Below, one piece after another: positions 3,531 through 22,128 of a stretch of DNA of 63,065 nt (position 1 is its first letter; each line of letters begins with the position of its first letter). The notes under the pieces are model-generated. The model did not search any database. It was not told where the DNA came from and saw nothing but the letters and a program-made list of their open reading frames with translations. Location of the stretch: the NCBI GenBank assembly GCA_016744375.1, contig JADGEM010000021.1, forward strand, positions 1 through 63,065, read 5' to 3'. A program made the translations under genes and the position numbers. The stretch is from Gammaproteobacteria bacterium. Lineage in GTDB: Bacteria > Pseudomonadota > Gammaproteobacteria > GRL18.

Positions 3531-6308
3531 ATGAAGCAGACGATTAATACTTTTTTAAACCCTATTTTTACTATAGCGGAACAGTGGTTTACCATCTCTC
3601 TTAGTGATTTTTCAAACCAGCTCTCTGAGTATTTAATTGATAAGTCTGAAAAATCAAATGTAACCACTATTCAGTCTGATTGCTTTACTGCATTACACAG
3701 CATTAATAAATCTTCAAATGAAGCCATTGATGTCTTTATGGCTTCGCTTGCTAAAAACTTTCAACTCATTGGCTCAGAACATCAGGCATCCACTTTGTTA
3801 AGCCATCAAAGCAGAGCCAATCAACTCAACTTGATAGAAACAAAGGTCCTGGAAGAAAACCTTTCTTTTGATACTGCGGTAGGAAAAATTACAAAAGATA
3901 ACCGTGAAGCATTTGCTCATTTAGAAATCCGAATTTTTACTATGCTGGAAAATCATGGTGAGCGTATTTCTGAGAACCCGTTAAGCGCTGAAAATATTAT
4001 CTCTGCTTTTCGTGACAGTATGGAACTCTTTGATTTTTCCCCTTCACTCCGTGTTGAGGTATACCACCTTTTTGAGCTGTATATTTCTGAAGACATTAGC
4101 AAACTGCTGGAAAAACTCAACAATGAATTAATCAGCAAGGGGATCATGCCCAAGATTTCAACTGATTATTCCATAAAAAAAGAAAAACAAGATAAGCAAA
4201 AGGTTGAACCAGAAATACCTGAGCAAGCAATACAGGAAGAACAAAACCTCCGCAGCTATATCTCCACTAAAAAACCTAATAAGCCATCAATGCCGCAAAG
4301 CGGGCTCAATATTCCAATCAACCGGCCTGATACGTTTGCCACACAAAATAGTCGAATGAATCCAGGACACGCAGCTCATAATAATTTTTATTCTCAAAAT
4401 ACGGAAGATCAGAGTGCCAGAGTTCAGTCTCCCTCTGGAACATCATCCAGGCAATCAGTATCTAACTTAAATAACCGTTATCTTGATCTTGCAAAACAAC
4501 TCTCCAGGGGAAAAAACAGACAGCCTGAAAGACAAAACATTCCAAATCAAACATCAACACCCATACCGATAAAACCTGAAGATGAGCTCCCACAAAATGA
4601 GACACAAGGACAAAATTCTTTTGCGTCCAACAGCCAGCTCAACAAACTCCTTGGTCATTCAAATAGCACCTCAACTAATATGGCTCATCGTTCAGAAGTG
4701 AATTATTTTCATACTCTAAAACAGATCTATGCGGATAAACATCAGGAAGAATCAAACCTGACCTCCACATTTACTCATGAACATGAGACCAGTACGAGAG
4801 AAATTATTGAGGCTTTGTTTGATGTCCAGTATATAAGCTCTTTGAGAAAAAACGCTCACGATGATTCAATGCCCTCGGTTCACCAGCAGATTAAAAATAA
4901 TATTCTTGCAAGCACTGATAAATCACCTGAAAGTACTCAGTTAAAAAATAATAAATTATATCTTATTGATATGATTGAAGACTTATTTAATCATATTTCG
5001 GACAATAAAAAGCTCTCTTCCAGTGCCCGGAATCTATTCCAGAAATTAACCATACCGCTTATCCATTTAACTCTGGTCGATGAAACCTTCATAGATAATA
5101 CAACCCATGTTGCTCGACTTTTCTTAAATGACTTTGCTGATGCAGCAATGGGTATTACTGACTTTGAACGTAACTTAAACAACCCAATTTTTCTTAAGCT
5201 GAAAAAAATGACCTATCAGCTGGCTCAAAAAAATAAGATTAATGGTACCGTTTTTTCTGAACTCCACAGCGATTTGAAACGCTTTATCAATCATAGAAAG
5301 CAATTTGCTAACACAAAGAGTCAGTCATCAAGGGCTTCAGCAACTAAGAAAATCGATGCGATTATCAGGCATTGTATCGATGGCAAAGAGATACCTAAAG
5401 GCATTACTTTAATCCTGAATAAAATCTGGAAAAATGTATTGCTTAATATTTATTTAGACAATACCTGTGATGAAGAGCATCGAGAACGATCGACAGCTTT
5501 TATTAATTCCTTACTGTTTAGTATTAAACCGGCTCAGTCCAGTATGGAAAGGAAACGCCTGGAGTCATTGATCCCGATTATTGATAAAGAGCTGGAGCTT
5601 GGTCTCGCCCGAATCAAGTGCCCCACAGACGTTAATAATAAAGTCACCACTTATTTAGAAAAACTTCACCATTCTGCACTGGTGAATACATTTTCTCAAA
5701 CCCCTGGCAATGATGATGCCATTGTTTATAGAAATGAGTTATTTGATGACTCCGGCAACACAGATTATAGTTCTGCCACTGTACCGCTGGAAGATGAATC
5801 AATATCAGATGATCTTATTTTATTTGATGAAACCATCAACAAAAAAATAGTTGCAAAAGAAGTGGACTCACTGGAAGAAGCATTTGTTGATGAGCATGCA
5901 ATGAGCGAGCCTGATACTGGAGTAGATTCTGATTTATCTGTTGAGAATAAGCCACAAAAGGATCACCCGCCTGAAAGACATTCAAAAACGGATTATGAGC
6001 TGATTCGTCTGGTTGGCCACAGCTATAAAATGAAACTCATTAATGATAACTACACTCGTATTGCTAAAAATATTGTCGAAGATGCCTGGCTGGAATTTCA
6101 TTTTGACACACGCTTCTCACGAGTTAAAGTCACCTGGATAGAAGATGATCACAGTCAATTTAATTGTTTAACTCAAAACAATCGTGTTGTTGAAATCTCT
6201 CTGGAAGCTTTAAGTGACAGCTTCCGTCAAGGTATTTGCACAGTCATACAGTCATCATCAATCATTGACGATGCCATTAAAGCTGTCAGTGATGCTGCAT
6301 CACAATAA
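3531..6308 (+). CDS. DUF1631 domain-containing protein
   Basis: A 925-residue soluble protein. The N-terminal third is helical. Residues about 215-400 are polar and low in complexity (rich in Gln, Asn, Ser and Pro) and probably disordered. The middle carries the DUF1631 signature around residues 500-560, with LTIPLIHLTLVDETFIDN followed by HVARLFLNDFADAA. The C-terminus near residues 845-915 (WLEFHFDTRFSRVKVTWIED) matches the terminal part of the same family. The biochemical role of DUF1631 is not established to my knowledge. No signal peptide or membrane helix is visible. It converges on folA with a 12-base gap. Confidence 0.75.
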   Translation: MKQTINTFLNPIFTIAEQWFTISLSDFSNQLSEYLIDKSEKSNVTTIQSDCFTALHSINKSSNEAIDVFMASLAKNFQLIGSEHQASTLLSHQSRANQLNLIETKVLEENLSFDTAVGKITKDNREAFAHLEIRIFTMLENHGERISENPLSAENIISAFRDSMELFDFSPSLRVEVYHLFELYISEDISKLLEKLNNELISKGIMPKISTDYSIKKEKQDKQKVEPEIPEQAIQEEQNLRSYISTKKPNKPSMPQSGLNIPINRPDTFATQNSRMNPGHAAHNNFYSQNTEDQSARVQSPSGTSSRQSVSNLNNRYLDLAKQLSRGKNRQPERQNIPNQTSTPIPIKPEDELPQNETQGQNSFASNSQLNKLLGHSNSTSTNMAHRSEVNYFHTLKQIYADKHQEESNLTSTFTHEHETSTREIIEALFDVQYISSLRKNAHDDSMPSVHQQIKNNILASTDKSPESTQLKNNKLYLIDMIEDLFNHISDNKKLSSSARNLFQKLTIPLIHLTLVDETFIDNTTHVARLFLNDFADAAMGITDFERNLNNPIFLKLKKMTYQLAQKNKINGTVFSELHSDLKRFINHRKQFANTKSQSSRASATKKIDAIIRHCIDGKEIPKGITLILNKIWKNVLLNIYLDNTCDEEHRERSTAFINSLLFSIKPAQSSMERKRLESLIPIIDKELELGLARIKCPTDVNNKVTTYLEKLHHSALVNTFSQTPGNDDAIVYRNELFDDSGNTDYSSATVPLEDESISDDLILFDETINKKIVAKEVDSLEEAFVDEHAMSEPDTGVDSDLSVENKPQKDHPPERHSKTDYELIRLVGHSYKMKLINDNYTRIAKNIVEDAWLEFHFDTRFSRVKVTWIEDDHSQFNCLTQNNRVVEISLEALSDSFRQGICTVIQSSSIIDDAIKAVSDAASQ

Positions 6309-20478: not shown

Positions 20479-20502
20479 AAAAGGGGCTTTTAAGCCCCTT
20501 TT
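20479..20502. terminator. Bidirectional rho-independent terminator between the small gene and adk
   Basis: AAAAGGGGCTT at 20479-20489 and AAGCCCCTTTT at 20492-20502 form a perfect 11-base stem with a two-base loop. Both strands carry flanking A/T runs. It lies seven bases past the adk stop and 110 bases past the stop of the convergent small gene, so it can end both transcripts. Confidence 0.85.
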
Positions 20503-20508
20503 ATCTCT

Positions 20509-22128
20509 CTACTTCTTTTTCTTCGCCTTTTTCCTGATAGCAACCTTCTTCTTGGTAGCTACTTTCTTTTTAGTTGCAACCTTCTTCTTAACGGCTGCTT
20601 TCTTGTTAGTTGCAACTTTCTTCCTGGCAGCTACTTTCTTTTTAGTTGCGACCTTTTTCTTAACGGCTGCTTTCTTTTTAGTTGCAACCTTCTTCCTGGC
20701 AGCTACTTTCTTTTTAGTTGCAACCTTCTTCTTAACGGCTACTTTCTTTTTAGTTGCGACCTTCTTCTTAACGGCTGCTTTCTTTTTAGTTACGACCTTT
20801 TTCTTAACGGCTGCTTTCTTTTTAGTTGAAACCTTCTTCTTAACGGCTGCTTTCTTTTTAGTTGCGACCTTCTTCTTAACGGCTGCTTTCTTTTTAGTTG
20901 CAATCTTCTTCTTAACTGCTGCTTTCTTTTTAGTTGCAATCTTCTTCCTGGCGGCTACTTTCTTTTTAGTTGCAACCTTCTTCTTAACGGCTACTTTCTT
21001 TTTAGTTGCAGCCTTCTTCTTAACTGCTACTTTCTTTTTAGTTGCAATCTTCTTCTTAACCGCTGCTTTCTTTTTAGTTGCGACCTTCTTCTTAACTGCT
21101 GCTTTCTTTTTAGTTGCGACCTTCTTCTTAACGGCTGCTTTCTTTTTAGTTGCAACCTTCTTCTTAACGGCTACTTTCTTTTTAGTTGCGGCCTTCTTCT
21201 TAACTGCTACTTTCTTTTTAGTTGCGACTTTCTTCTTGGCGGCTACTTTCTTTTTAGTTGCAACCTTCTTCTTAACGGCTGCTTTCTTGTTAGTTGCTAC
21301 CTTCTTCTTAACGGCTACTTTCTTGTTAGTTGCAACTTTCTTCCTGGCAGCTACTTTCTTTTTGGTTGCGACCTTTTTCCTAACTGCTGCCTTCTTGTTC
21401 TTAGGTGTCTTAGCTTTATCTTCTTTCATTTCTACAGCCTCTTTGTCTGTTGACTCCGGCTCAGCATCAATAGGTGTTTTAGCCAATGGGTCCAGAATTT
21501 TAGTAAGGCGAGCAAAGATATCATCAACATCCCCAGCACCTTCAATCGCAATATTTTTGCTTTGCTGCTTATAATAAGAAATGAGCGGTTCAGTTTGAGA
21601 GCTGTATATTTTTAGACGGTGACCAATGGTTTCTTTGTTATCATCAGCTCTCTGTATTAACTTACCTCCACATTTATCACAAACTTCTGTCAATATAGGA
21701 GCTGAGGTATAGATATTGTACATTTGTCCACAATCAGCACAAGTTCTTCGGCCGGTTAAGCGATGCATCAAATCAGTGAGGTCTACATCAATCAGGATTG
21801 TTTTTTCCAGAGGCTTATAAATCGTATTCAGCATATTATCCAGAGCTTCTGCCTGAGGAATATTTCTTGGAAAACCATCAAGAATAAAACCATAAAAAGC
21901 ATCTGGTTCTTTTAAACGTTCTTCTATAATTCCAAGAACAATATTATCTGTGACTAATTCACCGGCTTCCATTGCTTCTTTTGCTTTGATTCCCAGTGGG
22001 GTTTCATCTTGAACTGCGGCACGTAATAGGTCGCCTGTCGATATTTGTGGAACTCCATATTTTTCTACTAATTTTTTTGCCTGTGTACCTTTACCTGAAC
22101 CTGGAGCGCCTAATAAAACAATTCTCAT
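20509..22128 (-). CDS. adk: Adenylate kinase with ~300-residue lysine-rich repetitive C-terminal tail
   Basis: Residues 1-217 form a complete adenylate kinase, which interconverts ATP + AMP and 2 ADP. The P-loop GAPGSGKGT, the AMP-binding ISTGDLLR and the LDGFPRN motif are present. The LID carries four zinc-type cysteines (130, 133, 150, 153). An acidic linker (about 218-240) leads to residues 241-539, made almost only of Lys, Ala, Val and Thr in 12-residue units such as KKKVATKKKAAV. Normal Adk is about 215 residues, so the tail more than doubles it. The frame is open throughout with no internal stop. The tail resembles histone-H1-like bacterial proteins; its role here is unknown. Confidence 0.93.
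   Translation of the reverse strand: MRIVLLGAPGSGKGTQAKKLVEKYGVPQISTGDLLRAAVQDETPLGIKAKEAMEAGELVTDNIVLGIIEERLKEPDAFYGFILDGFPRNIPQAEALDNMLNTIYKPLEKTILIDVDLTDLMHRLTGRRTCADCGQMYNIYTSAPILTEVCDKCGGKLIQRADDNKETIGHRLKIYSSQTEPLISYYKQQSKNIAIEGAGDVDDIFARLTKILDPLAKTPIDAEPESTDKEAVEMKEDKAKTPKNKKAAVRKKVATKKKVAARKKVATNKKVAVKKKVATNKKAAVKKKVATKKKVAAKKKVATKKKVAVKKKAATKKKVAVKKKVATKKKAAVKKKVATKKKAAVKKKVATKKKAAVKKKIATKKKVAVKKKAATKKKVAVKKKVATKKKVAARKKIATKKKAAVKKKIATKKKAAVKKKVATKKKAAVKKKVSTKKKAAVKKKVVTKKKAAVKKKVATKKKVAVKKKVATKKKVAARKKVATKKKAAVKKKVATKKKVAARKKVATNKKAAVKKKVATKKKVATKKKVAIRKKAKKKK
20512..21408 (-). repeat. 36-base tandem repeat array encoding the Adk lysine-rich tail
   Basis: About 24 imperfect copies of a 36-base unit encode a 12-residue unit (KKK-[VA]-A-[VAT] alternating with KKKVAT). 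Copies differ by single codons such as Asn for Lys, Arg for Lys, Ile for Val and Ser for Ala. The reverse strand of the array is open too and would encode a hydrophobic Phe-Leu-Ala-Thr repeat, which is a by-product of the composition. Such arrays change length by slippage or recombination. Confidence 0.9.

Follow-up and report, generated by a model that had tools for sequence, protein, structure and literature searches.

The window that we analyzed, a stretch of 63,065 nucleotides, encodes an adenylate kinase (Adk) that runs without interruption into a long lysine-rich C-terminal tail. Adenylate kinase is a textbook soluble enzyme. The tailed Adk is real and widespread in its class and is not an oddity of this contig. 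As far as can be judged from sequence, the tail most likely serves as a tether to a polyanion, and among polyanions we place nucleic acid ahead of polyphosphate. The parts of the gene are these:

20509..22128, minus strand: whole gene, adenylate kinase plus lysine-rich tail, 539 aa, stop codon at 20509-20511 (ORF and translation)
21487..22128, minus strand: adenylate kinase core, residues 1-214 (matches to Pfam ADK, NF001380 and solved kinases; 1zin over residues 1-216)
22084..22110, minus strand: P-loop GAPGSGKGT, residues 7-15 (translation; G12-T15 invariant in an eight-sequence alignment)
21643..21750, minus strand: LID domain with four cysteines, residues 127-162 (Pfam ADK_lid, 1.1e-13; cysteines invariant)
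21409..21486, minus strand: linker with some acidic residues, residues 215-240 (translation and residue counts)
20512..21408, minus strand: lysine-rich tail, residues 241-539, in which a 12-residue unit (36 bp) is repeated about 24 times (repeat finding, composition and pLDDT)
20479..20502, minus strand: terminator-like hairpin directly 3' of the stop codon (consensus scan; two such sites in total, not above the shuffled mean of 2.3)

A single minus-strand frame leads from 22128 to 20509, with no stop codon at the junction between kinase and repeat. The core matches Pfam ADK at 7e-53 (179.2 bits, cut-off 26.8) and the NCBIfam equivalog NF001380 at 284.9 bits (cut-off 251), and the solved kinases 3dkv and 1zin match it end to end. 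All four cysteines of the LID (C130, C133, C150 and C153) are invariant in eight sequences, the window's included; we take this to be a Zn-type LID. By its conserved residues and structural matches, the protein is an active-looking enzyme. An earlier note on this DNA had proposed a complete Adk with a four-cysteine LID in frame with about 24 twelve-residue repeats, and this is borne out by the ORF, the profile scores and the repeat finding. The coordinates that it gave, 20512-21408, are correct for the tail (residues 241-539), while the whole gene occupies 20509-22128. Its acidic linker does contain acidic residues, but is only mildly acidic, with 9 D/E against 7 K/R in residues 213-245.

The genome to which the window belongs (4.29 Mb in 137 contigs) has three Adk matches, and only this one carries a tail. 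Another of them, on contig C101 (L003), is a divergent adenylate kinase with about 40% identity and a different LID. Eleven of the 15 further genomes in the genus have matches that resemble it.

What does the tail look like? Tandem Repeats Finder gives a period of 36 bp, 23.8 copies, 88% matches and 0% indels. The encoded 12-residue unit of Lys, Ala, Val and Thr is in effect two hexads of the form KKK-xxx, and the Lys/Arg residues recur with a period of six (autocorrelation 0.93 over residues 241-539), above all 500 shuffles of the same residues, the highest of which gave 0.23 over lags 2-12. The 325 residues after residue 214 are 45% Lys and have a net charge of +145; the fraction of Pro in the tail is about 0.01. 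Among the 80 complete tails of the class, length ranges from 88 to 325 residues and net charge from +20 to +145, with a median of +63.5. In 71 of these 80, D/E residues are more frequent in the first 40 positions than in the remainder, with means of 4.5 in the first 40 and 0.8 per 40 residues in the rest. At five loci (L085, L091, L104, L105 and L149) a charged segment, helical-looking by eye, lies between the lysine-rich stretch and the end of the protein.

An AlphaFold2 model built with seven full-length relatives as input has a mean pLDDT of 53.3 and a pTM of 0.41. In its core, 22 ten-residue blocks lie at 61-91, with residues 9-12 of the P-loop under 50. Residues 219-539 have pLDDT under 50 and no secondary structure; the tail is predicted to be disordered. 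A Pfam search, in which the composition corrections of HMMER may hide a match, found none over the tail up to E 1.

Our class draw consisted of 370 genomes, the window's own among them, and the best-scoring Adk locus was read in 132: 130 scored about 287 bits or higher, and two with lower scores (G318 and G327) were added for their long-looking frames. One high scorer cut by a contig end (G367) was left out. A lysine tail is present at 88 of the 132 loci. Since the search profile came from eight tailed sequences, this count does not give the proportion of class Adks that have a tail; with low scorers mostly left out as well, the sample leans to tailed Adks. Of the others, 39 have no tail and five have another or a doubtful end, and excluding the two added loci gives 87 tailed of 130. 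Ten lower-scoring loci outside the 132 (L024-L033) are all untailed. Tailed loci occur in 40 families and untailed ones in 17, family f69 alone having both. In 37 of the 88 tailed cases, counting genomes at least 90% complete, the tailed protein is the only Pfam ADK match in its genome. Often, therefore, no adenylate kinase other than the tailed one was found. In a tree built from the kinase cores, whose bootstrap values had not settled, the tail label must change at least 10 times, against 38.2 times in shuffles, and four of these changes are forced by well-supported branches.

Within the genus, 10 of the 15 other genomes have a close orthologue that runs into a lysine-rich stretch, five of them being cut by a contig end; the remaining five have no Adk match or distant Adks only. 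In one genome of this genus there is a second copy (G013:C1:2352869-2353566), with 94% identity over residues 1-177 and in two frames, which suggests a decayed or misassembled duplicate.

In a collection of named organisms, which overlaps partly with the class genomes, the best 80 loci of a larger number comprise 49 tailed, 30 untailed and one unclear. Tailed examples are Thiohalophilus thiocyanatoxydans DSM 16326 (L207) and the endosymbionts of Escarpia and Lamellibrachia (L209, L210). Untailed examples are Methylophaga sulfidovorans (L230), Ectothiorhodospira mobilis (L232) and records titled Nitrospirae, Nitrospirota or Nitrospiraceae. Closest to the window protein among the named matches listed are those of symbionts of Lucinoma myriamae (L175, 88% identity) and Taylorina sp. 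(L176, 84%).

Several suggestions can be made regarding the role of such a tail. The one that we prefer, and to which we would give about an even chance, is that this disordered polycationic extension tethers the enzyme non-specifically to a polyanion, with nucleic acid as the likeliest candidate, and localises adenylate conversion. If so, the full-length tail would be translated and would bind nucleic acid, either the chromosome or RNA and ribosomes. Binding would localise the enzyme and keep the reaction ATP + AMP <-> 2 ADP close to the polymer. We put a polyanion tether, with nucleic acid first, because proteins with similar lysine stretches are encoded in the same genome: topoisomerase I (L169, contig C53) has one at its C-terminus, and an HU-like DNA-binding protein (L166, contig C39) has one at its N-terminus. 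Two of the three lysine-rich proteins found there besides Adk are DNA proteins. The lysine repeats of actinobacterial TopA have been tied to DNA binding and likened to histone H1 (PMC7398561), and the KPAA tail of AlgP has also been tied to DNA binding, a fragment of that tail binding DNA (PMC9239181). The likeness to histone-H1-like tails that the earlier note drew is a fair one, given the Lys/Ala-rich composition, the predicted disorder and the lysine stretches on topoisomerase I and the HU-like protein. Tethering of Adk to a polyanion appears plausible.

Contig C48 of the same genome encodes, at about 3641-3820, the end of a protein (L165) that we read by eye as aminopeptidase-like and that closes with a similar lysine-rich tail. 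Such tails therefore occur outside the nucleic-acid proteins as well.

Another potential partner is polyphosphate. By analogy, the tail could bind it and couple Adk to polyphosphate-driven ADP/ATP regeneration together with PPK2, which we consider doubtful though worth keeping in mind. Non-covalent binding of polyphosphate by some lysine-rich proteins is described in one report (PMC12077175), where two binders in a set of four have 9 Lys in 20 residues and two non-binders have 5 and 7. Our criterion for a lysine-rich polyphosphate-binding protein (KPM), about 9 or more Lys per 20 residues, is a threshold of our own, derived from those two published binders. The window tail reaches 12 Lys in 20 residues, and a density of at least 9 in 20 is found in 82 of the 88 class tails and in none of the 39 untailed proteins. 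In addition, the window's own genome has two PPK2 matches (PPK2 was searched for in 23 genomes), and AlgP, with its H1-like tail, localises to polyphosphate granules (PMC9239181). Changing Lys to Arg abolished polyphosphate binding in another study (PMC12345225), so charge alone is not enough. However, no PPK1 match was found in the window's own genome, whose assembly is 94.7% complete, nor in three other tailed genomes of family f1 in the class draw (G003, G007 and G010). PPK1 is in fact rarer with the tail, being matched in 56 of 88 tailed and 32 of 39 untailed genomes (Fisher 0.04, phylogeny ignored); that is, a match is absent from 32 of the former and seven of the latter. Because of these PPK1 results polyphosphate, once a candidate for first choice, was lowered, and it seems less favoured than DNA or RNA as the partner of the tail.

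It can also be imagined that the tail keeps Adk close to sites that release AMP and pyrophosphate (PPi) together, e.g. aminoacyl-tRNA synthetases bound to RNA or ribosomes, or close to a membrane H+-pyrophosphatase (H+-PPase) on anionic lipid, in cells with a PPi-based energy economy. We think this unlikely, even though the raw counts are strong. The linkage test was restricted to the 100 loci that have 3 kb of flanking sequence and used queries drawn from tailed loci. In it, 48 of 59 tailed genes, against five of 36 untailed ones, have a phosphofructokinase (PF00365, about 420 aa) and/or an H+-PPase (PF03030) no more than about 3 kb away (Fisher 8e-11). A control neighbour, ALAD, showed no difference (20 of 59 and 10 of 36). 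By its length and context, the phosphofructokinase that neighbours tailed kinases in families other than the window's would be of the PPi type; Pfam says only PFK. Genes for an H+-PPase occur in 71 of 88 tailed against nine of 39 untailed genomes, and in the window's own genome a phosphofructokinase gene stands beside the H+-PPase gene, on another contig. Among the best 80 of the larger number of named loci, 27 of 49 tailed and two of 30 untailed kinases have a phosphofructokinase as a neighbour, and 21 of 49 and one of 30 have an H+-PPase.

The difficulty is ancestry. Supported branches give only four independent tail contrasts, which puts significance out of reach, and common descent alone could for this reason produce the association between tail and PPi genes. 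Across the four contrasts the PPi trait changes, on average, the same way in 1.7 (linkage) or 2.4 (genome content) and the opposite way in 0.0. Moreover, the five loci with another or a doubtful end, which stood outside the linkage test, all have phosphofructokinase nearby, and the neighbours of the window Adk itself are genes of the ThiF and Dus families. We therefore do not regard the link between the tail and pyrophosphate genes as an independent association; the counts are inseparable from ancestry. The control neighbour, ALAD (delta-aminolevulinic acid dehydratase), is encoded near the kinase at L066, L072, L088 and other loci.

A broader version of this idea, and in our opinion also an improbable one, would be a guild of Gammaproteobacteria that base part of their energy metabolism on PPi and keep their Adk, often the sole one, attached by a polycationic leash; AMP set free together with PPi at RNA or DNA would then be recycled locally. 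If this were true, the spatial organisation of the adenylate pool would be a heritable trait of PPi-economy bacteria.

It may be asked whether the tail has any role at all. Repeat arrays can grow by slippage without function, and the tail could be a near-neutral expansion of a tandem repeat that a robust enzyme tolerates at its end; it might also be cleaved off, or translated only in part. The tail length of 88 to 325 residues, the differences in length and unit between close relatives and the absence of a tail from 39 of the 132 loci would fit such an origin, for which we see only a small chance. Against it stand the occurrence of lysine-rich tails in 40 families, the presence of a Lys/Ala tail on another type of Adk in one further genus, and the fact that within the genus the lysine pattern is kept despite codon turnover. 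Between the window and L005, for example, Lys spacing is kept while Ala and Val codons have turned over: GCA accounts for 38 of 70 Ala codons in the window tail and two of 71 in L005. A comparison by eye of the window's 23 repeat units, column by column, revealed no clear excess of synonymous change.

Runs of A bear on the same question. The window tail contains no run of six or more A, where shuffling its own Lys codons gives 10.7 and the Lys usage of the core gives 38.1. In the window's family this shortage has P<0.05 in four of eight tails (L005, L008, L009 and L034, the last being the window); it does not reach that level in L010, L011, L012 and L039, two of which are incomplete tails, and L012 has more A runs than its shuffles. 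Over all 92 tails tested, whose repeat copies are not independent, P<0.05 is reached in 10, and 386 A runs are seen against 484 in shuffles and 753 at core usage. The shortage hints at selection for clean translation, which is not proof of it, and its lack of generality is a point in favour of neutral expansion.

The remaining explanations can be dealt with briefly. An assembly artefact is ruled out by seven single-contig genomes that have the tail in one frame (G042, G133, G057, G130, G140, G298 and G381). A dispersed DNA repeat was rejected, as the best matches to the repeat as DNA elsewhere in the genome have E values of 9e-7 and 2e-5 and both fall inside the HU-like and topoisomerase genes. 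The plus-strand ORF at 20552-21574 mirrors the repeat and is probably a by-product of Lys codons and not a real antisense gene.

Returning to the polyanion tether, if Adk is indeed attached to a polymer in dozens of bacterial families, then cells organise their adenylate balance in space.

How does the tailed Adk compare with what is already described? Like the window Adk, the kinases 3dkv, 1zin and those of NF001380 have a full-length core with P-loop and LID. The chains of 3dkv and 1zin, however, end at 217 residues, while the window protein has 325 residues beyond residue 214. The remark of the earlier note that it knew of no described Adk with such a tail has to be amended, since NCBIfam already has a model, PRK13808/NF010381, of 335 positions, that likewise joins an adenylate kinase to a Lys/Ala-rich C-terminal tail, and the window form is itself widespread in its class. 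The PRK13808 match indicates that public models already include such tails. The window protein is not a member of this family, scoring 199.2 bits against a cut-off of 426; five of 199 genomes of the phylum have a protein that passes, all in genus g327 (L256-L260, 284-292 aa). The PRK13808-type enzyme, which presumably is the alphaproteobacterial type of tailed Adk, differs from that of the window in having no four-cysteine LID, a tail of about 90 residues and no hexad repeat. The simplest reading is that the two kinds of tail are probably of separate origin. In the literature searched, outside of which most subscription journals lie, we found no discussion of a lysine tail on either type of Adk.

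AlgP and PhaF of Pseudomonas also consist of an N-terminal domain followed by a long, disordered, Lys/Ala-rich tail. The window protein shares with them a strongly positive tail (net +145) that is predicted to be disordered (pLDDT under 50 over residues 219-539). It differs in the repeat, since the tails of AlgP and PhaF are built of Pro-rich KPAA repeats and that of the window, with about 1% Pro, has KKK-xxx hexads in place of KPAA units. In the window, moreover, the domain that carries the tail is an enzyme.

Actinobacterial topoisomerase I is, like the window Adk, an enzyme with C-terminal lysine repeats (PMC7398561). The lysine-rich end of TopA in the window's own genome (L169) is shorter than those repeats. 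TopA acts on DNA, and its tail therefore helps to bind the substrate, whereas the substrates of Adk are free nucleotides. A low-complexity tail on an enzyme whose substrates are not nucleic acids helps to separate tethering from substrate binding.
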